Shown one piece after another: positions 35,409 to 48,533 of a stretch of DNA of 64,000 nucleotides. Under the pieces are notes generated by a model. The model was not told the origin of the DNA and searched no databases. It worked only from the letters and a program-made list of their open reading frames with translations. The DNA is from Deltaproteobacteria bacterium (GTDB taxonomy: Bacteria > Myxococcota_A > UBA9160 > UBA4427). Each line of letters begins with the position of its first letter. Within the stretch, counting starts at the first letter, position 1. The DNA lies in NCBI GenBank assembly GCA_029261855.1, contig JAJDAN010000031.1, positions 124,001 through 188,000 on the forward strand, written 5' to 3'. The position numbers and the translations under genes are program-made.

Positions 35409-35515
35409 TCGCCAACGGATCGGCGTTCAGTGGTTTGCGGCGACCTGGCACACTGCTGCTGAACACCTGGGATTCCCGCGATTCTACCACGCGCCAGTAG
35501 GCCCAGCGTTGGCGA
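35409..35515 (-). repeat. Degenerate attC-like remnant
   Basis: The ends TCGCCAACG (35409-35417) and CGTTGGCGA (35507-35515) are exact complements and contain core-site-like GTTGGC. GGATCGGCGTTCAG next to the first end, and GATTC/CTACCACGC in the centre, match the clear attC at 46683-46814. At 107 bp it is shorter than the 132-136 bp of the intact sites, so it is probably decayed. Confidence 0.5.
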
Positions 35516-35652
35516 GTCCGACTACAACGGCTTCAGACGGCTCCCTCGAGCGGCCCGGCGGTGGCGCGCGTGGCACTTCTTGAAACCCCCACCTTCGATC
35601 GGAACGAGCCGGCGGTCGTGAACGACAGCGCCTCGTTCGGCGGCGCCCGAAG

Positions 35653-39939: not shown

Positions 39940-39970
39940 GGTCAAAATCGATCACGGTTGCTTGTTAGCC
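39940..39970 (-). repeat. Truncated attC site beside the IS110 remnant
   Basis: Read on the minus strand the segment starts GGCTAAC (R''-like) followed by AAGCAACCG and stops after ~30 bp at the IS110-remnant end. The R'' heptamer is followed by the start of an attC L'' region; the rest of the site is missing. It sits just downstream of the HNH gene, where its attC should be. Confidence 0.6.
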
Positions 39971-39974
39971 AGCG

Positions 39975-40889
39975 CTACGCACCAAGGTAGACCTGCTCGT
40001 TGTGCCAGACAATGTTGTCCTCGGAGAGAGCCTGTTCTGGGCTGCCGGGCTCGCGAAGGTCGCGGCCGTGAAGTGCGTAGTACTCGCGACCATTGTGGAA
40101 TTCTTCGCGGATTCTGGTGCTCACTTCGACGTGATGATCGGTCGTGATTGTCAAGTATCCGCGATCGAAGAGCGTGTGCATATCGCTCCGGAGCAACAGC
40201 CCGTTCTCGATTGAGTGGACACCGCCTGAGGCGTACGGCCGAACATGTGCTGCCTCGAGCACCGGCAACACTCTCTCGCCGGTCAGCGCACACCGCCTTT
40301 CGTAGGCGTCCGTAACTACGACGCGGAACGAACCCTGACCAAGTCGGGGTCGGATCGCGATGAGGCTCCCGTATCGTTCCGCGTCCGAATCTCGGAGCTG
40401 AAGCTCATGGAGCGCCCCTTGAAGCTGCCGATAGAGAGTCGCCCCGGGCTCCTGGACGAGGTCGTAGGTCTTCCCCTGCACGATGTTCGGGCTCCAGTCG
40501 GCAGGAACTGGCACCCAGCGGTGCTCGGGCAGAAAGAAGGGCTGCGTGAGAAGGATGCAACCAACCGTGAAGTCTTCACGGTCTTCTGTCGAGGTACGCC
40601 GATACTTCAGCGTTCGTGTTCTCATCTCCTGAAGCGACCGCACGCCGTTGGCGATGTCGAAGGATGACCAGGCAAGACTGATTGGCAACAGACTCGAGTG
40701 AGCGAAGATGCCGCCGCCCACTATGAAGTTGCGAGGGCTGTGGAGCTTGAACAGAAAGAGGTCGCCGGGGGTGAGCGCTTTGAACTGTCGCGAACCGCCC
40801 GGTTGCCAGAAATTCACCTCTTCGAGGTCGGGCTGGTGCCTAAGCAGGTCGAACCACTCGAAGTCTGTGACGCCTATGTATGACTTCAT
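39975..40889 (-). CDS. HNH endonuclease (cassette gene)
   Basis: 304 residues from ATG 40889. The N-terminal domain (MKSYIGVTDFEWFDLLRHQPDLEEVNFW to LFKLHSPRNFIVGGGIF) resembles PUA/SRA-like modified-base readers. The C-terminal end carries EAAHVRPYASGG, SIENGLLLRSDMHTLFD, the HNH_2 metal/catalytic site seen in 'putative restriction endonucleases' (COG3440). This fits a modification-dependent nuclease. It is the only gene of its cassette, followed by a truncated attC. Confidence 0.82.
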   Translation of the reverse strand: MKSYIGVTDFEWFDLLRHQPDLEEVNFWQPGGSRQFKALTPGDLFLFKLHSPRNFIVGGGIFAHSSLLPISLAWSSFDIANGVRSLQEMRTRTLKYRRTSTEDREDFTVGCILLTQPFFLPEHRWVPVPADWSPNIVQGKTYDLVQEPGATLYRQLQGALHELQLRDSDAERYGSLIAIRPRLGQGSFRVVVTDAYERRCALTGERVLPVLEAAHVRPYASGGVHSIENGLLLRSDMHTLFDRGYLTITTDHHVEVSTRIREEFHNGREYYALHGRDLREPGSPEQALSEDNIVWHNEQVYLGA

Positions 40890-40913
40890 GAGCGGCGCAT
40901 TGCACGCCCTCGT

Positions 40914-41049
40914 GCTGGACGGATCTGCTCTCCAGCGGCGTGGCAACAGCGCCGGCAGACCGCTGGGACAGCCTGGTTCGAAGCCAGGACGCTACCAGAA
41001 GAGATGGCGGCAGGCTGTTGCCAAGTCCGTTCGCAACAGCTTGTTGCGC
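40914..41049 (-). repeat. attC site (degenerate cores)
   Basis: 136 bp; ends GTCCAGC/GCGCAAC on the minus strand. Inner arms GGCAACAGC and GCTGTTGCC are exact complements, and GTTCGAAGCC/GCTACCAG in the middle match the other sites. Core heptamers deviate from GTTRRRY but the length and inner blocks place it in the same family. Confidence 0.7.
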
Positions 41050-41096
41050 GGCACCTAGCTGGCGGTAGCGCTCTGCGTGCGCTTGAGCCCGGAGGG

Positions 41097-41801
41097 TCAA
41101 GTCGCTCTGCCGTGCCTCCGCTCGAGGCTCTGAACGTGTTCTATATCCGTCCGGCCACTGATGGCGAGGCGCGCAGTCTCAAGCCGGCCAACGCAAAACT
41201 GCACTCGATTGAGGGACATGACCTCGACGGTCTGTTCGCGCACGTATTCAACGAACCGGGAGAGGCTAAACACTCCCTGAGGAGTCTCTGTCTTGAACTC
41301 CGCATCGCCGCTGAAGACGACGACCGACTTGACGGCGCCGGGCGGTAGGAAGTCAAGGAGGCCTTGCACAGCCCGAACGTGCCGCATGTTCTGGAGTATT
41401 GGGTTCTGGAACTTGAACCTGCGCTTGAACAGGACTTGAGTCCAATTCGCCTGCTTCGCGCCGGCGAAGATCCAACCCTTGTAGTGCTTGGTCTCGATTA
41501 CGAATACGCCAAACCGAGACACGAGGATGTGATCAACCTGGGTTGTGCCGTCATTCAACTCAAGAGTGACGTGATTCATCAGGTGATAGTCAGGAGGACC
41601 GAAGTTCGTCCGCGCGACGTGGGACAGGAGTGCCTCGCCGCGGTTCTGGAATTCGGAGGCACGGGAGGCGCGAGAGGCACAGTACCGGCCAATGACGAAG
41701 CCAGTCGCTAGTGCAAGAAGGATGTAGAGCACGGCCCAGTCGTCCTGCTTCCAGTCGCGAAGAAGCGCCGACAGGCGCTCAACCACAGTGTCGTACGACA
41801 C
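41097..41801 (-). CDS. NERD-domain nuclease-related membrane protein (cassette gene)
   Basis: About 234 residues, start uncertain (GTG 41801 chosen; an upstream TTG would reach into the attC). WAVLYILLALATGFVIGRYCA is an N-terminal transmembrane helix. The NERD domain follows: LNDGTTQVDHILVSRFGVFVIETKHYKGWIF, with the D and ExK of a PD-(D/E)xK nuclease fold. NERD proteins are thought to act on nucleic acids; several occur in phage defence. Sole gene of its cassette. Confidence 0.8.
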   Translation of the reverse strand: MSYDTVVERLSALLRDWKQDDWAVLYILLALATGFVIGRYCASRASRASEFQNRGEALLSHVARTNFGPPDYHLMNHVTLELNDGTTQVDHILVSRFGVFVIETKHYKGWIFAGAKQANWTQVLFKRRFKFQNPILQNMRHVRAVQGLLDFLPPGAVKSVVVFSGDAEFKTETPQGVFSLSRFVEYVREQTVEVMSLNRVQFCVGRLETARLAISGRTDIEHVQSLERRHGRAT

Positions 41802-41843
41802 TACCGAGATTCCCTGCGCTAGCTCACCGAGACCCAGCGCGCT

Positions 41844-41978
41844 GCCCAACGGATCGGCGTTCAGCGGCCAGCAACAGCGCTGACCGGATCCGATCCTGCC
41901 TCCTCAGTGTGCCGCCAGACGGCCACGATGGTCAATTGAACCGAGCTGTTGCTGGTCCGGTTCAACGATTTGTTAGGC
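41844..41978 (-). repeat. attC site
   Basis: 135 bp. On the minus strand it starts GCCTAAC (41978-41972, whose TAA is the stop codon of the nuclease gene upstream) and ends GTTGGGC (41850-41844). Inner arms CCAGCAACAGC and GCTGTTGCTGG are exact complements. Typical R'', L'', L', R' order. Confidence 0.85.
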
Positions 41979-42776
41979 AGAAACCTTGGGAGCGCCTGGC
42001 TTAGACGATTGCTCAGGCCCCTTCTTTGTGCTCCGCTTTCGCAACTTTCGCAACGACGCCCTTGCAACGCGCTTCTTGGCCTCACTGGCGACATCACCTT
42101 CCAAAAGGTCACGCTTCAAAACGTCCGGAAGGATCCGTGCAAGCTCTTCTGTTGTCACGCCGCAATCGGGCGCGAGGCGTTTCAACTCCCTGCGGATGAC
42201 ACTCAGGACCGGATCAGAGGCGACGAGCGCGCCCACGATAAATCGATTGACGACTTGCACATGCTCGTGAAACGCCTCCATCGCGGATTGGCCAATGCCC
42301 TCCTTGGAGAGGAGGTAGAGAGTTTCGTGGGTTTCCGATTTCCGAGGAGAAAGATCGAGAAACTCAAAGACGCACACTTCTTCGTGGTGGACGGGCTGCT
42401 CGAACCTGATGCGGTAAATCTCCCACCGCAGTCCGTTCGTGAGAACTACCCACGGAATGCCCTGATTTGCGCCGTAATTCACGGCCTGACGGAGGTGATT
42501 CTCCCGAAGAGTCAGGCCAATCGCCTTCACCTCAATCAGGAACTTCAACTTCCCGTCTTGCTTTACCGCAAGGTCACAGAAAGTTCCTCGAATCGCCTGC
42601 TCGCTCGTGATGTCGGTGTACTTGTCGTAGCCAAAGACGGCTGCAAGAACATCCGTAATGATGGTGACCGTATCAGATTCGTTGACGTCCCGATCCTTCG
42701 CGTCGGCAAGAACGCGCTGGAATGTGCCAACCGTCTTTGAAAAACGATCTGCGACTCTCTTGGGCACCTTTGCCAT
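41973..42776 (-). CDS. HsdR_N-type restriction-related nuclease-domain protein (cassette gene)
   Basis: 267 residues from ATG 42776. TFCDLAVKQDGKLKFLIEVKA (D68, E82, K84) is the PD-(D/E)xK signature of the type I restriction enzyme R-subunit N-terminal domain (PF13588), but the helicase part is absent. LRQAVNYGANQGIPWVVLTNGLRWEIYRIRF is the next conserved block. Its stop TAA is part of the attC R'' box. Sole gene of its cassette; a stand-alone defence nuclease is plausible. Confidence 0.84.
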   Translation of the reverse strand: MAKVPKRVADRFSKTVGTFQRVLADAKDRDVNESDTVTIITDVLAAVFGYDKYTDITSEQAIRGTFCDLAVKQDGKLKFLIEVKAIGLTLRENHLRQAVNYGANQGIPWVVLTNGLRWEIYRIRFEQPVHHEEVCVFEFLDLSPRKSETHETLYLLSKEGIGQSAMEAFHEHVQVVNRFIVGALVASDPVLSVIRRELKRLAPDCGVTTEELARILPDVLKRDLLEGDVASEAKKRVARASLRKLRKRSTKKGPEQSSKPGAPKVSA

Positions 42777-42793
42777 CGAGTGGTCTCCTTTCC

Positions 42794-42907
42794 GCCTAAC
42801 GGATATGCGGTTCAGCTGCGCCCGGCAGCGCTGACCACCAACGCTGGAGCACTGCACCCGCCGCCAGAACGGTATCACGCCTCGATTGGAGCACGCTGCT
42901 AGGTGTC
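42794..42907 (-). repeat. attC site, R' side part, interrupted by the IS3 element
   Basis: The first 114 bp (plus-strand order) of an attC: GTTAGGC on the minus strand at 42800-42794. Inner sequence GGTTCAGCTGCG resembles the other sites. It is cut at GTC (42905-42907), which is repeated after the IS. Together with 44119-44139 it reconstructs to 135 bp. Confidence 0.85.
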
Positions 42908-42967
42908 TGATCTTGCCCCGATAAGTGGACACCTAGAATAGGTCCAAACGGACCATCGAGGTGCTCC

Positions 42968-43267
42968 ATGCCCAAGAGGAAAGAACCCACCCGGCTGCAT
43001 CGCTCCTTCACGCCCGAGTTCAAGCGAGACGCTGTGAGGCTCGTGCAGGATGGGAAGACGTTGACCGAGGTCGCCCAGAACCTCGGCATCGCGCGGAGTC
43101 TCCCGCAGTACTGGAAGAAGCAGCTCGAGAAGAGCTCGCGGCTGAAGAAGGAGCTCCGCGATGCGCGTGAAGAGCGGGACATCCTGAAAGAAGCACTGGC
43201 CTACTTCGCGGACGACCAGAAGCGAAGTTCCGGTTCGTCCAGGAGCATCGGGGGACCTTCCGAGTAG
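42968..43267 (+). CDS. IS3-family transposase OrfA
   Basis: 99 residues. RSFTPEFKRDAVRLVQDGKTLTEVAQNLGIARSLPQYWKKQL is the HTH of transposase family 8; LKKELRDAREERDILKEALAYFA is the leucine-zipper-like helix. It normally yields an OrfAB fusion by -1 frameshifting into orfB, which lies in the -1 frame. Confidence 0.9.
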   Translation: MPKRKEPTRLHRSFTPEFKRDAVRLVQDGKTLTEVAQNLGIARSLPQYWKKQLEKSSRLKKELRDAREERDILKEALAYFADDQKRSSGSSRSIGGPSE

Positions 43268-44085
43268 GCATGATGTGTCGAGTCCTGAAGGTCTCCCGCA
43301 GCGGCTGCTACGCTTGGCGGGGACGTCAACCGAGTCGTCGCGAAGTCGAGGACCAAGGCTTGGTGGATCGGATCCGCGTCATCCATGCCGAGAGTCGGGA
43401 GCCGTACGGCTCTCCGCGCATTCATCGCGCGCTTCGCCACGACGAGATCTGGGTCGGTCGCAAGCGAATCGCTCGCTTGATGCGCTGAGAGGGCCTCTCG
43501 GGCTGTTCCGCGCGGCGGTTCAAGCGCACGGCAACGGTTCGCGCGGAACTCCCGGCTCCCGGGAACCTGCTCGATGGCGACTTCTCCAGCGAAGCTCCGA
43601 ACCGGGTCTGGGTCGGCGACGTGACCCAGATCCGAACGCGGGAGGGGTGGCTCTTCCTCGCCGTGCTGCTCGATCTCTTCTCACGCAAGGTCGTTGGCTA
43701 CGCGACCTCGCCACATCCGCGACAAGGTCTCGTACTCGAGGCCCTGGACGCTGCCGTCGCGTCGCGCCATCCCGAGGCCGGTCTGATCCATCACACGGAT
43801 CGAGGCGGGGTCTACTTCAGCACGGAGTATCAGGGACGACTCGACGATCACGACATGCAGTGCAGTGCCAGCAAACCCGGGCGCTGCGTCGACAACGCGG
43901 TGGCCGAGAGCTTCTTCCACACGCTGAAGACCGAGTGGATCTATCACTTCGACTTCTACACCCGAGACGAAGCGCGCCTTGCGATCTTCGACTACGTCGA
44001 GACGTTCTACAACCCGTCCCGGCTTCACTCGACACTCGACTACCGATCACCCAACGAGTATGAAAGAATGAAGGCTGCCGCTTAA
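43225..44085 (+). pseudogene. IS3-family transposase OrfB, interrupted by an in-frame stop
   Basis: In frame -1 to orfA the product begins KFRFVQEHRGTFRVGMMCRVLKVSRSGCYAW, continues to KRIARLMR and meets TGA at 43486-43488 (codon 88). The same frame goes on EGLSGCSARRF to the DDE domain: WVGDVTQI (D1), HTDRGGVYFS (D2), NAVAESFFHTLKTE (E), ending at 44085. The single stop most simply arose as CGA to TGA, making this copy inactive unless recoded. Confidence 0.82.
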
Positions 44086-44115
44086 CCCCGTGTCCACTTT
44101 ACCGGGGCAGGATCC

Positions 44116-44139
44116 GTCGGCTGCAAGCGCTGGTTAGCC
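44116..44139 (-). repeat. attC site, R'' side part after the IS3 element
   Basis: GTC (target duplication) then GGCTGCAAGCGCTGGTTAGCC. On the minus strand it opens GGCTAAC, the R'' box of the attC whose other part is 42794-42907. The GTTAGCC heptamer matches the R' of the previous attC (45264-45396), as expected for one cassette. Confidence 0.8.
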
Positions 44140-44333
44140 AGCTTATTGCGTGAGAAGCATGTTCGTGATGCGAGCAAGCGGACGGCGTGCGGGCCGGGTG
44201 TCCAGCCCAAGATTCCGGTCCAGCCGATTGGCAGCAGCAGCGTGACGTCGAGCCGTTCGGCCGACCGCGCGAGCGGTGGATGCGTGGGCGCACCTTGTTC
44301 GCAGGGCGACACGGTGTGCGGTCGGAGGTCGAG
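44140..44333. other. Non-coding part of a cassette
   Basis: 194 bp between the attC and the stop of the methyltransferase gene. No conserved frame or hairpin is evident. Confidence 0.35.
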
Positions 44334-44969
44334 TTACTCGCTCGCCGCCTTGCGGCCCAGCATGCAATGAGCACCGAACCGCACCGCGTCGTTACGCTCG
44401 GTCCGGGTCTCGACGAACCCCGCATCGCGGAACGCGGCTTCGAGATCGGCAAGCTCGTGGAGATGAAACCCGTCCGTTTGGGCCGGCTTGAAGCGCATGA
44501 AGTTCTCCCGGACCGGGAACGTCACTGCCGCCAGGCCGCCGAGCTTGAGCACGCGGTGCATTTCCTTGAACACCGTGCCAGGATTACCAATCACGTACAT
44601 CGTGGCGACGGTGCACGCCTTGTCGAACGCCCCATCGTCGAACGGCAATGAACCGCCCGCGGCCGCATGTAGTGTCACTCGCCCTTCGGAGATGGCCCGT
44701 GCGTTCCTCCTCGACGCCATCTCGATCGCCGTCTTGGAGATCTCGGCTCCCCTGACGTGTCCCTTGGACGTCCGTTCAGCGAGTAGCTCGATGTTCGCCC
44801 CGTTTCCGAAGCCCACCTCCAGGAGGTCATCATCGGGCTGCACCTCCATCAGGTCCGCAGTCCAACGAGCGTGCTCGATCGTTTTGGGCGTCATCCAGGC
44901 AAACAGTGCCTTGCCGAGCAACCCTCTGGGGTGCTGCAGCTGCTTACCAATCACACCGATCAATCCCAT
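44334..44969 (-). CDS. SAM-dependent methyltransferase (cassette gene)
   Basis: 211 residues. DDLLEVGFGNGANIELLAERTSKGHVRGAEIS is motif I/II, GGSLPFDDGAFDKACTVATMYVIGNP motif III, and MHRVLKLGGLAAVTFPVRENF the following strand. It matches the UbiE-like small methyltransferases common in integron cassettes. The substrate is unknown. It overlaps the start of the small gene upstream by 10 bp. Confidence 0.83.
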   Translation of the reverse strand: MGLIGVIGKQLQHPRGLLGKALFAWMTPKTIEHARWTADLMEVQPDDDLLEVGFGNGANIELLAERTSKGHVRGAEISKTAIEMASRRNARAISEGRVTLHAAAGGSLPFDDGAFDKACTVATMYVIGNPGTVFKEMHRVLKLGGLAAVTFPVRENFMRFKPAQTDGFHLHELADLEAAFRDAGFVETRTERNDAVRFGAHCMLGRKAASE

Positions 44970-45247
44970 TCGGTCGCCTCGCTTTGCTCGATTGTCGGCG
45001 CCGCGGCATCTGCTACGCGTACACCGTGAACGCGAGAAAGGCCCCGAGCAGGGTCCAGAACGTGCCGATCACTCGCGTCATGGTCGGCCTCAACAAGTCT
45101 TGCCCGATCCCTGAACTCCTCATAGATCTGGTCGGCGGTCGCGCCGATGGCGACAGAACCCGCGCGACCTCGTTCCACGACCAGTGCTTTGTCCAGGGGC
45201 GTCGCCGCTTGCAGAGTAATGATCAACGCCAGGGCATTGTGTCGCAT
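44960..45247 (-). CDS. Small possibly secreted protein (cassette gene)
   Basis: 95 residues. MRHNALALIITLQAA looks like a signal peptide; ALVVERGRAGSVAIGATADQIYEEFRDRARLVEAD resembles a periplasmic domain seen in small unknown proteins. The last 35 residues look less ordered and a frameshift is possible. Same cassette as the methyltransferase, upstream of it. Confidence 0.5.
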   Translation of the reverse strand: MRHNALALIITLQAATPLDKALVVERGRAGSVAIGATADQIYEEFRDRARLVEADHDASDRHVLDPARGLSRVHGVRVADAAAPTIEQSEATEWD

Positions 45248-45263
45248 TCGTCACTCATTGTCT

Positions 45264-45396
45264 GGCTAACGGATCGGGCTTCAGCTGCACCAGCCAGCGC
45301 TGACCGGCCTCGCCGAAGCCAGGGAAGTTCGATGCCAAGGCTACCAGACGCCGGAACGCCTAGCTGGCTGGTGTCAGCTGCAAGCCCTTGTTGGGC
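45264..45396 (-). repeat. attC site
   Basis: 133 bp. Minus-strand ends GCCCAAC (R'') and GTTAGCC (R'). Inner arms GGGCTT-CAGCTG-CACCAGCCAGC and the complementary arm carry two unpaired bases, the extrahelical positions typical of attC. Central GTTCGATGCC/GGCTACCAGAC as in the other sites. Confidence 0.86.
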
Positions 45397-45426
45397 GGCC
45401 CGTCGCACTGCACCGAGCCGCGTCGG

Positions 45427-45942
45427 CTACCAGGTCGCTGTGCCGACGACGGTTCGATTGCCACTGGTGTTCGCAAAGTACTGGTGCGCGACTCCGTCGA
45501 GAGGTTCAGGGTGGAAAACTCGGGCTCTGAACGTCGCTGACTCTCCAGTCGGAACCATCCGAGTGGATGTGCGGCCATCGAACTGGACAAGCCAGTGCTC
45601 GTTGTCGTCGGACTTCTCAATGGAGTGAGCCCAGTCCGCGACGTTTCGTGAGGTTGATTCGATCACGGGCTTGGCCGGGAACGCCGAGATAGGAAGCTCG
45701 ATAGCGAAATGACCCATGTGATCACCGCCGTTGTTGGCTGGCGTCGCCTTGACGGAGACGACATAGGTGAGAACCGACTCGGCCACAGGAGACCCGCCTT
45801 GCGTTTGAGACGACGTCTCAACGCCGACCGCGAAGTACGGGGGAGGGCCCGGATCGGGTGCATCTCGATTCCACTCGGAGACCCACCCGGCCGCCAGATA
45901 CCCGAGCGCGAACGCAAGAAGCGTGTTCGCGATACTGCCCAT
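45427..45942 (-). CDS. Membrane-anchored protein of unknown function (cassette gene)
   Basis: 171 residues from ATG 45942. One N-terminal transmembrane helix (IANTLLAFALGYLAAGW), then a beta-rich domain (FAVGVETSSQTQGG, FAIELPISAFPAKPVIES, ESATFRARVFHPEP). Such single-helix, beta-domain proteins are frequent in cassette arrays. No homology recognised. Confidence 0.65.
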   Translation of the reverse strand: MGSIANTLLAFALGYLAAGWVSEWNRDAPDPGPPPYFAVGVETSSQTQGGSPVAESVLTYVVSVKATPANNGGDHMGHFAIELPISAFPAKPVIESTSRNVADWAHSIEKSDDNEHWLVQFDGRTSTRMVPTGESATFRARVFHPEPLDGVAHQYFANTSGNRTVVGTATW

Positions 45943-45973
45943 GCGCTTTGACCGCTTCGACTCAGCCAAGGCC

Positions 45974-46108
45974 GCCCAACGGATCAGGCGCTCAGCTGCG
46001 GCCAACAGCGCCTCCGAGGCGGAGCGAGCACCAGCTGTTGATGCCAGAAGGCTACCAAACCCCAATTGAAACGCGCTGTTGGACGTCAGCTGCAGCGCCT
46101 TGTTGGGC
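45974..46108 (-). repeat. attC site
   Basis: 135 bp with GCCCAAC/GTTGGGC ends on the minus strand. CTCAGCTGC and GTCAGCTGCAGCGCC pair; the centre contains GCCAGAAGGCTACCAAAC, as in the sites at 47306 and 47753. Full R''-L''-L'-R' order. Confidence 0.87.
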
Positions 46109-46122
46109 GGCGCGCGCATCAG

Positions 46123-46665
46123 CTAGGCGGTGTCCTCGGTACCTTCCCCGGGAGTCACGGAGTTGGCGGTCACAGGTTTCCAGTAGTCACCGTCATCGCG
46201 TGGTCCTTGCGAAAGGACCTGGTCGATCAGGGTCTGAAAATCAGGAATCACATAGGATCGGCCGATCCGCTGCCACCACGCCCTCGACCATTGTGGGATA
46301 AAGATCGCGTTGATGATCACAAGGCGCGCTTCCCAGAGCGCGGAGGGCTGTAGACCTCGATGCACATCGAGAAAGTCCTGTTGGAGCACCAACAAGTACG
46401 AGAGAAACCAGTGTTCGATCTGCGCCATTTCCGTCGGCGTTAGATCTGGATCGGGGCTCGCGTAGATCTTGCTTATCGAGCCTGCAGTCGAAGGATTCAT
46501 CATCGCGAGTGAGATCTGTTGTAGTGAGGAGGTCGATTCGCGCGCGCTCTGCTGGCGAAGTGCGAAAGTGCTCTGCCGGAGCTGGAAGATCAGAAACCCA
46601 AGGGTGACTACTACGGCAGCTGCGCCGACGACCTCGCCGATTGCTCCAATCGCTTCCCAGTTCAT
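46123..46665 (-). CDS. Membrane-anchored helical protein (cassette gene)
   Basis: 180 residues from ATG 46665. MNWEAIGAIGEVVGAAAVVVTLGFLIFQLRQST is a common opening in environmental proteins of unknown role: one N-terminal transmembrane helix followed by a helical domain (IEHWFLSYLLVLQQDFLDVHRG, ARLVIINAIFIPQWSRAWWQRIG). Sole gene of its cassette. Confidence 0.72.
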   Translation of the reverse strand: MNWEAIGAIGEVVGAAAVVVTLGFLIFQLRQSTFALRQQSARESTSSLQQISLAMMNPSTAGSISKIYASPDPDLTPTEMAQIEHWFLSYLLVLQQDFLDVHRGLQPSALWEARLVIINAIFIPQWSRAWWQRIGRSYVIPDFQTLIDQVLSQGPRDDGDYWKPVTANSVTPGEGTEDTA

Positions 46666-46682
46666 CGAGTTCTCACCGCGCC

Positions 46683-46814
46683 GCCCAACGGATCGGCGTT
46701 CAGCGGCGTGCGGCGACTTGCCGGATGACTCCGTGAACACCTTGGATGACCGCGATCCTACCACGCCGCATACCGGCGCGGCGTGAGCACGTCCGCTGCA
46801 ACGGCATGTTGGGC
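46683..46814 (-). repeat. attC site
   Basis: 132 bp with GCCCAAC/GTTGGGC ends on the minus strand. CGGCGTTCAGCGG and CCGCTGCAACGGC are complementary. The centre CGATCCTACCACGCC differs from most of the other sites but matches the remnant at 35409-35515. Confidence 0.86.
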
Positions 46815-46825
46815 GGCGAGCGGGC

Positions 46826-47023
46826 CTATGGACCGGGACGAGATTTCTCCGTGTCACACTCTTCGCGTTCGTAGTCGTAGCTCCCACCGGAGTCGAGGCA
46901 CGCATCAACCCTGGCAGCGCGAATAGCGGGACGTGCGCAGAGCAACCCCGACAGCAGAGCAACGGCCAGCATGATTCCGGGGACGAGCCACTGGAGGTAG
47001 GATTCGCGCTCAAAGTGCCTCAC
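46826..47023 (-). CDS. Small single-helix membrane protein (cassette gene)
   Basis: 65 residues. LQWLVPGIMLAVALLSGLL is a transmembrane helix; ARVDACLDSGGSYDYEREECD is a short extracytoplasmic tail with two cysteines that may form a disulphide. Second of two genes in this cassette, just before the attC. Unknown role. Confidence 0.55.
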   Translation of the reverse strand: MRHFERESYLQWLVPGIMLAVALLSGLLCARPAIRAARVDACLDSGGSYDYEREECDTEKSRPGP

Positions 47024-47052
47024 GAGGAGCCTCCGGCGTTTGACTCGCGGGT

Positions 47053-47286
47053 CTACTCGAGGGGCATCACGACTACGTCGGGCATGTCATCGGCCCAACC
47101 AGGCCAACTATCCCGCAAATGGAGATGGTCTACCGGCCCCGCCTCTATCGCCGCCGCGGAGGCGAGCAGGTGGGTGGCAACTCGGCGCAAGAACTCGGCA
47201 CTGGCTTGGAAGGTGACCTCAGCAAGCTCCGCAGGACCGTCGTCGACCCGGTCGCCACGAGGGTAGCCATAGGCCAGATTCGACAT
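47053..47286 (-). CDS. Small soluble hypothetical protein (cassette gene)
   Basis: 77 residues, MSNLAYGYPRGDRVDDGPAELAEVTFQAS at the start, then an amphipathic helix (EFLRRVATHLLASAAAIE) and a short strand (DVVVMPLE). It could be the antitoxin-like or first gene of a two-gene cassette, but no family is recognised. Confidence 0.5.
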   Translation of the reverse strand: MSNLAYGYPRGDRVDDGPAELAEVTFQASAEFLRRVATHLLASAAAIEAGPVDHLHLRDSWPGWADDMPDVVVMPLE

Positions 47287-47305
47287 GTCGCCTCCGATTC
47301 TCGCC

Positions 47306-47439
47306 GCACAACGGATAGGCGCTCAGCTGCGTGGCCCAGCGCCACCGAAGACAGCTCGAGCACCATGGTTCGAAGCCAGAAGGCTACCAAACGCGAGGAA
47401 CTCCAGATGGGCCACGTCTGCTGCTGCGCCTTGTTATAC
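47306..47439 (-). repeat. attC site (near-identical to the next)
   Basis: 134 bp with GTATAAC/GTTGTGC ends on the minus strand. GGATAGGCGCTCAGCTGCG and the whole central part (GGTTCGAAGCCAGAAGGC) agree with the site at 47753-47887 almost base for base. Confidence 0.86.
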
Positions 47440-47640
47440 CGCGGGCGTTCTACCGGCCCATGACTGGCGCCACCGGGTGCGCTCGCAAAGCGAGAAGAAG
47501 GACCTGGCAACAGGGCATCGAGAAGCTTGGTGTCGTGCCGGGACGGAGCCACGCGAGGGAGCAGCCCGCAAGGGTTTGCAGCTGGATTGGACGCTGCAGC
47601 GGAGCCGGTCTTGCCTGGCGAGGTGCTTCCGCGTATTCAC
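47434..47640 (-). CDS. Possible small ORF in a cassette, stop supplied by attC
   Basis: 68 residues, Arg- and Ser-rich, no recognised domain; its TAA (47434-47436) lies in the R'' box of the attC, as is common for true cassette genes. Composition is not convincing and other frames are open here, so a non-coding cassette is also possible. Confidence 0.3.
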   Translation of the reverse strand: MNTRKHLARQDRLRCSVQSSCKPLRAAPSRGSVPARHQASRCPVARSFFSLCERTRWRQSWAGRTPAV

Positions 47641-47752
47641 CGGGAAGCCGCGTCCGGCATGGTGTGCGGGTTGCCTTCACCAAACCCACCGGCCAGCGCT
47701 AGAGCGCTTGCGAAGCGAGGGCCAGCGGTTCCCCTTGTATCACGTCCCCGCG

Positions 47753-47887
47753 GTATAACGGATAGGCGCTCAGCTGCGTGGCCCAGCGCCACCGAAGACA
47801 GCTCGAGCACCAAGGTTCGAAGCCAGAAGGCTACCAAACGCGAGCGACTCCCTGATGGGCCACGTCTGCTGCTGCGCCTTGTTAGAC
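47753..47887 (-). repeat. attC site (near-identical to the previous)
   Basis: 135 bp with GTCTAAC/GTTATAC ends on the minus strand. Its GTTATAC is the exact complement of the R'' (GTATAAC) of the attC at 47306-47439, the expected signature of a cassette inserted by core-site recombination. Confidence 0.87.
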
Positions 47888-48288
47888 AGTCGACGCGCGT
47901 ACCTGCCCCCAACGGCGACCCGCCTGAGAGAGGAAGCTCTAGGCCCGAACGGGGGGTGCCACGGCTGCCAGCTCGCGCCCTGGCAACGGACCAGGGGCAA
48001 GCGAGGACCTTCGCGACGAGTGGCACGCGTGAACACACAACCCGCCGCTCGCGCTGCGACAAGCTGCGCTGCGAGGCGCGACCCGGAACACAGCAACGGG
48101 CCATCGAAGCGGAGCTTGCAAGCGGGAAGCCCGCGAGTGGTGTGGCCCAGCGCGCGACTCGCGGCGCGTCGCGGGAAGCAACGACGAACGAAAGAGCAGA
48201 GCGGCGCGAAGCTCAGGCCGTGCCGACTGCACCGAGTGCGCGGCTCTTCAGAACTGAGAGCCAAGTCCGCGGACCGAGAGTCGTCGCT
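47888..48288. other. First cassette of the array, no convincing gene
   Basis: 401 bp between the attC at 47753-47887 and the terminal core-like site. The minus-strand frame expected to end at the attC stop is closed after ~15 codons; longer open frames are Arg/Ser/Ala-rich and read through the attC. Probably a non-coding or decayed cassette. Confidence 0.4.
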
Positions 48289-48295
48289 GTATAAC
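48289..48295 (-). other. Array-proximal core-site-like heptamer GTTATAC
   Basis: GTTATAC on the minus strand, preceded by GCAGCTCATTAACTA. It marks the upstream end of the array. It could be a decayed attC right end or the core of an attI; no integrase gene follows within the window (next gene: a thiolase). Confidence 0.4.
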
Positions 48296-48533
48296 TAGTT
48301 AATGAGCTGCAGAAACCGTAGCCCGCTCGCTGGATATCGCGCTGCCCCATTCGGGTTATCCGACGCATCGTATCCGCCTCGTTCCGCGCTGCAACTCCGC
48401 GAACTCGCGTGGTTCCGGTCCGTTCTCGCTGCGCAAATGCGGCGGTCTGATGGCGCAGAACATGTCGCCATATTCGTGATAGCGCGCACGCCTCTTCGGA
48501 TCGCGTACATCGGGCCCACGACCACCCTCCCCG
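48296..48533. other. Intergenic spacer between array and thiolase gene
   Basis: 238 bp after the thiolase stop. No gene, hairpin or attC-like element recognised. Several in-frame stops in all frames compatible with a gene start. Confidence 0.4.

Follow-up and report, generated by a model that had tools for sequence, protein, structure and literature searches.

The window analysed here is a stretch of 64,000 nucleotides (positions 124001-188000 of contig C31) from the draft genome of a member of the phylum Myxococcota (genome G000; 6.96 Mb in 91 contigs, 98.6% complete). The element in question is an array of integron-type gene cassettes in its right-hand part, which a preliminary description, made from the letters alone, had read as an array of attC sites of one resident family without a visible integrase. 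That the array is real was established by finding its sites again, both by pattern and with a covariance model (CM). From its head on the right to its tail on the left, it is composed of the following attI and attC sites, cassettes, open reading frames (ORFs) and insertion sequence (IS).

48289-48361, minus strand: attI site heading the array (two-block pattern, upstream homology and position weight matrix, 17.7-19 bits)
47759-48294, minus strand: cassette 1, 536 nt, ORF-less (homologues by blastn and alignment)
47753-47887, plus strand: attC of cassette 1 (CM 144 bits)
47312-47758, minus strand: cassette 2, 447 nt, ORF-less (homologue on contig C10)
47306-47439, plus strand: attC of cassette 2 (CM 142 bits)
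46689-47311, minus strand: cassette 3, two small ORFs, from translation
46683-46814, plus strand: attC of cassette 3 (CM 90 bits)
46123-46668, minus strand: cassette 4 gene, 181 aa, no Pfam match
45974-46108, plus strand: attC of cassette 4 (CM 121 bits; fold z -6.8)
45427-45954, minus strand: cassette 5 gene, 175 aa, no Pfam match
45264-45396, plus strand: attC of cassette 5 (CM 121 bits)
44960-45247: small ORF upstream of the cassette 6 methyltransferase gene
44334-44969, minus strand: cassette 6 gene, class I methyltransferase (PF08241, 7.5e-16)
42794-44139, plus strand: attC of cassette 6, split by the IS3-type element (joined flanks give a 135-nt attC)
42908-44115, plus strand: IS3-type element, 1208 nt (PF00665/PF13333; GTC target duplication)
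41973-42776, minus strand: cassette 7 gene, HSDR_N-type restriction-like protein (PF13588, 2.2e-7)
41844-41978, plus strand: attC of cassette 7 (CM 119 bits)
41097-41849, minus strand: cassette 8 gene, NERD nuclease-related, start codon uncertain (PF08378, 4.9e-26)
40914-41049, plus strand: attC of cassette 8, with degenerate R' (GTC) (CM 93 bits)
39975-40892, minus strand: cassette 9 gene, HNH endonuclease (PF13391, 3.9e-12)
39964-39970, plus strand: truncated attC half-site GTTAGCC after the HNH gene, read directly

Eight attC sites of one family thus lie between 40914 and 47887, seven of them uninterrupted; the bottom strand of every site is the plus strand, and the sites alternate with minus-strand genes. 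Their coordinates and their lengths of 132-136 nt were as originally given, and the CM, built from the window sites together with four attC sites of contig C32, matched them at these positions with 90-144 bits. Also in agreement with the preliminary description, the boundary heptamers are identical in five cassettes (47753/47306, 46683/45974, 45974/45264, 45264/42794 and 42794/41844) and differ by one base in two (47306/46683 and 41844/40914); those of the first cassette, bounded by attI, are likewise one base apart. Two statements held only in part: the end heptamers are generally complementary, except at 40914, where R' is degenerate (GTC instead of GTT), and the centres said to be shared fall into at least two types. 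The split site is genuine, as its joined flanks restore a 135-nt attC of the family ending in GTTAGCC, the IS3-type element being inserted at the conserved GTC with its transposase frame interrupted. Besides the half-site at 39964-39970, a weak further attC was detected at 35411-35538 (plus strand; CM 31 bits, E 1.5e-5), so that the array tail may extend to 35.4 kb, with this weak site as a possible remnant of an older tail.

The bottom strands of seven sites folded better than their shuffled counterparts (plus strands, z -3.2 to -6.8). The best fold at 45264 leaves two unpaired bases, seven bases apart on one arm of the plus strand, which resemble the extrahelical bases of known attC sites. 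In an alignment of 11 attC sequences, 92.9% of the structure cells pair, and double-sided changes affect 11 of the 27 pairs, a value reached by none of 500 shuffles and lost when the partner is slid; this pairing test is not decisive alone, because the structure was derived from those same sequences. The region thus displays the characteristic features of an integron cassette array, including several RYYYAAC/GTTRRRY-ended attC sites with a foldable bottom strand, cassette bounds at G/TT, and co-oriented ORFs that each end before their own attC. An origin of these sites as dispersed repeats is ruled out by their structure, by the cassette boundaries and by their association with intI. Rfam searches at gathering thresholds produced no match in the window, and no tRNA was found there.

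An integrase profile search revealed no integrase in the window, as previously noted, and none on the whole of contig C31. The lack of integrase is a local one, since the genome has a single gene above the curated cut-off for intI (TIGR02249, 265 bits), located at C32:3855-4853, intact and coding for 332 aa. Its product scores 411 bits and aligns end to end with IntI4 (2a3v, 1.8e-82), tyrosine-recombinase motifs included, and is thus an integron integrase both by the cut-off and by its full-length match to an established IntI. Among named relatives, the nearest come from Myxococcota metagenome-assembled genomes, with 72 and 61% identity. The 3' end of this intI faces the array that it heads, whose attC sites belong to the family of the window. 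Genome-wide, the CM returned 61 attC matches at E 1e-3, some of them weak, in six clusters (C31; the start of C32 plus C10; C28, 154-188 kb; C42, 99-102 kb; C32, 64-67 kb; and C32, 199-203 kb), and the idea of a resident attC family, found elsewhere in the genome and beside intI, is thereby borne out. As contigs end or begin inside arrays, those of C28, C10 and C32 may be pieces of a single long array fragmented by repeats; judging by its size and by the cassettes it carries, C10 is probably part of the intI-led array.

The head of the window array had been overlooked. Here lies an attI site whose far end carries the accessory block ATAACCCGAATGGGGC and whose core is TCATTAACTA/GTTATAC, with no adjoining intI. 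The attI adjacent to intI, located on C32 downstream of the gene and at the start of the cassettes, reads TAACCCGAATGGGGC...GGGTCAATAACTA/GTTGGGC, and the window site, from 48289, reads TAACCCGAATGGGGC...GCTCATTAACTA/GTTATAC. Across the genome, the two-block pattern was found in these 2 places and a reversed control pattern in 0. A BLAST search that used just the window attI as query did not recover the other attI sites; finding them took the two-block pattern and a matrix. Each of the five arrays whose head was assembled begins with an attI-like site, correctly oriented and 302-797 nt before the first attC, and intI adjoins one of the five. Three further arrays are thus attI-headed and devoid of intI (heads at C32:~202964, C32:~63005 and C42:~98526), which makes five diverged attI sites at five loci on three contigs; the head of the C28 array lies near or beyond the contig end and was left outside these five. 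No intI remnant was found upstream of the four orphan attI sites by tblastn to E 1.

Because the two-block pattern had been written after seeing both sites, additional tests were made. The attI cores found beside intI in other genera have a shared form close to AATANTAGTTRGGC, and a 24-nt matrix trained on these genera only, judged too unspecific for a genome-wide scan, was compared with 176 control windows of 2.5 kb. It gave 17.7 bits for the window site, 26.7 for the intI-adjacent attI, 26.7 for the head near C32:203k, 21.2 for that near C32:63k and 22.3 for that of C42. The best control window reached 18.1 bits, so that one control exceeds the window attI and none the other four heads; the core alone would therefore set those four apart from the controls, and the window head just narrowly. 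The roughly 55 nt upstream of the core, which lay outside the matrix, are homologous to the intI-adjacent attI in the window, 203k and C42 sites (0/500 shuffles each), and the similarity is borderline at C32:63k (12/500 shuffles). Judged as a complete integron, the window array appears to have an attI at its head and has no intI adjacent to it. As a possible sign of the cassette promoter Pc, a TACAAT-like box is conserved in most attI sites and is weak in the window (TACGGT). About 10 bases before this box, several attI sites of G000 and of the same-genus genome G001 have in common a GACGC block, which may correspond to an integrase-binding or promoter element.

The arrays also share cassettes. 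Window cassette 1 (536 nt) matches four complete cassettes of C32 and one of C10 end to end, with exact boundaries and 87-90% identity, and cassette 2 (447 nt) matches C10:1377-1824 with 92% identity. Without their attC, the shared cassette bodies are 85-92% identical over their full length. Their order is 536 then 447 in the window and 447 then 536 on C10, an opposite arrangement that favours separate cassette movements over block duplication. Whole-cassette homologues in opposite order are what integrase-mediated exchange between arrays would be expected to leave. The copies of the 536-nt cassette vary in length from 532 to 536 nt, differing by one, two or four bases, which are not multiples of three; since no reading frame is kept, these cassettes were regarded as ORF-less. 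Six diverged complete copies of this cassette were recorded (L008:238-3157, L037:1825-2360 and window 47759-48294), and the blocks conserved among them might reflect a role as a promoter or as an RNA.

The survey of intI covered 41 genomes, namely G000 and 40 relatives of its order, and genes above the curated cut-off were present in 19 of them. Attention had been drawn to Gammaproteobacteria as the best-known hosts of chromosomal integrons, a contrast that adds little surprise given this frequency; an attC class of Deltaproteobacteria is already listed in PMC8352920. Attachment sites of the window type, which were to be sought in related genomes, were found in 18 of the 27 family genomes. Arrays headed by attI without adjoining intI occur in G018 (C225, C1), G012 (C50), G003 (C108) and G014 (C153), and an intI fragment is kept at those of G005:C97 and G041:C196. 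An attI head was not found at G010:C93, G010:C68, G017:C93 and G005:C70, and none was convincing at G008:C134; the heads of G018:C70, G012:C92, G003:C20, G008:C216 and G001:C251 lie near or beyond contig ends. The intI of G024:C27 (L181) is divergent from its cassettes, the classical layout, unlike the co-oriented intI of G000.

In G001, the intI locus is syntenic with that of C32. On its contig C528, the thiolase gene is followed within ~900 nt by a sequence found at C31:123151 in G000, a junction indicating that ~49 kb, which begin shortly before the first window position and extend to 48541, are absent from the G001 locus. For most of the window between 16 and 36 kb, G001 offers no closely similar sequence; the window attI lies ~180 nt from the thiolase stop and from the right edge of this ~49-kb island, whose edges are flanked by no direct repeats of note. 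The G001 gene located 3' of the thiolase gene (L152:7222 onward) starts with MNWDAVGAVAEGVGAAG, which is similar to MNWEAIGAIGEVVGAAA, the beginning of the cassette protein encoded at 46123-46668.

Based on these data, and with a probability of roughly 0.68, the window array is best explained as a satellite attI platform of a resident myxococcotal integron, with about nine cassettes and no integrase of its own, that would be served in trans. One integrase would probably serve several scattered cassette platforms, as a single intI was found together with at least four attI-headed arrays without integrase. In this scheme, the IntI of C32 would recognise the shared attC family, cut the folded bottom strands and insert cassettes at the neighbouring attI, and it would also act in trans at the distant attI copies, including that of the window, where its action may continue today. 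The attI copies would then add further places for cassettes to enter, every one of them with a head position of its own and possibly with a promoter for the first cassettes. The action of an integrase in trans on clusters of attC sites lacking integrase (CALINs) is accepted in the literature (PMC9668308, PMC12444791).

Several observations weigh against a shared integrase. With the draft split into 91 contigs, another intI may have escaped assembly. Judged by the core alone, no other head scores as low as the window attI, which one control surpasses. With cassette bodies 85-92% identical, exchange between arrays has not been recent. Finally, the array shows signs of decay, with a degenerate R', a truncated last site and an IS within an attC.

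These same signs, together with the age of the shared cassettes, are what would be expected under the main rival explanation, a decayed former integron: a complete integron with its own intI would once have occupied this locus, and the loss of this gene would have left a decaying, inert array with an attI as a leftover. The intI fragments kept beside attI-headed arrays in G005 and G041 are consistent with such a history in relatives. Yet in G000 nothing resembling intI was found upstream of the orphan attI sites, the window attI is separated from the thiolase stop by just ~180 nt, and the head cassettes are common to the window and to the intI-led array, all of which make this scenario unlikely. 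Segmental duplication, or homologous recombination between repeats, might also have produced the shared cassettes and the attI copies without any integrase acting between arrays. Homologous repeats are indeed present, and a draft assembly cannot date such events, but the homology ends precisely where the cassettes do, and the shared pair is found in opposite order in the two arrays, which renders this explanation improbable. Least probable of all is the insertion of cassettes by IntI at secondary attG-type sites whose likeness to attI would be due to chance or to selection acting on the core. Such insertion is known outside integrons (PMC12444791) and is compatible with the borderline C32:63k head, but the ~55 nt of upstream homology at the window, 203k and C42 sites is not required by attG selection and sets these sites apart from attG, defined by the lack of attI homology beyond the recombination core.

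The proposal of satellite platforms served in trans might extend to the lineage. It is tentatively conceivable, with the odds somewhat against it, that the distributed integron is a design common to the whole lineage, this order of Myxococcota, with one integrase, several attI platforms, and cassettes moved among them into different expression contexts.

As for the cassette content, three neighbouring genes (39975-42776) encode nuclease- or restriction-like products (HNH, NERD and HSDR_N), and the cassette methyltransferase (44334-44969) matches the methyltransferase part of a defence-library model. A defence bias among the window cassettes is possible.

In the standard description, one integrase is associated with one attI, and each integron has one attI (PMC3607928). 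No description of one intI with several diverged attI-headed arrays per chromosome, nor of the recurrence of such a layout in a lineage, was found in the accessible portions of the open-licence literature. A close likeness to G000 is a Shewanella sp. prophage with one intI and two attI-headed arrays; both arrays belong to one prophage and have the same attI, whereas G000 has five diverged attI sites in a layout that recurs across genera. The chromosomal integron of Treponema has an intI transcribed toward attI and the cassettes, as on C32, but it is described as having one attI, with intI adjacent, and belongs to a different phylum (PMC3607928). In Xanthomonas, CALINs occur away from ilvD, with intI at one locus and attC clusters at other conserved loci, as here; unlike the window array, no attI is reported for them in the accessible part of that study, where they are contrasted with attG insertion (PMC12444791). 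With at least two attC sites and their cassettes and no adjacent intI, the window array is a CALIN by current terminology, but at its head stands an attI that is homologous to the one beside the intI of this genome. CALINs are common and have been proposed to be decayed integrons, and attI detection by IntegronFinder is limited to class 1 (PMC9024848); given that this standard tool makes no search for them, attI sites are suggested to be under-reported. The layout of G000 makes it testable whether clusters without integrase are dead or served in trans.

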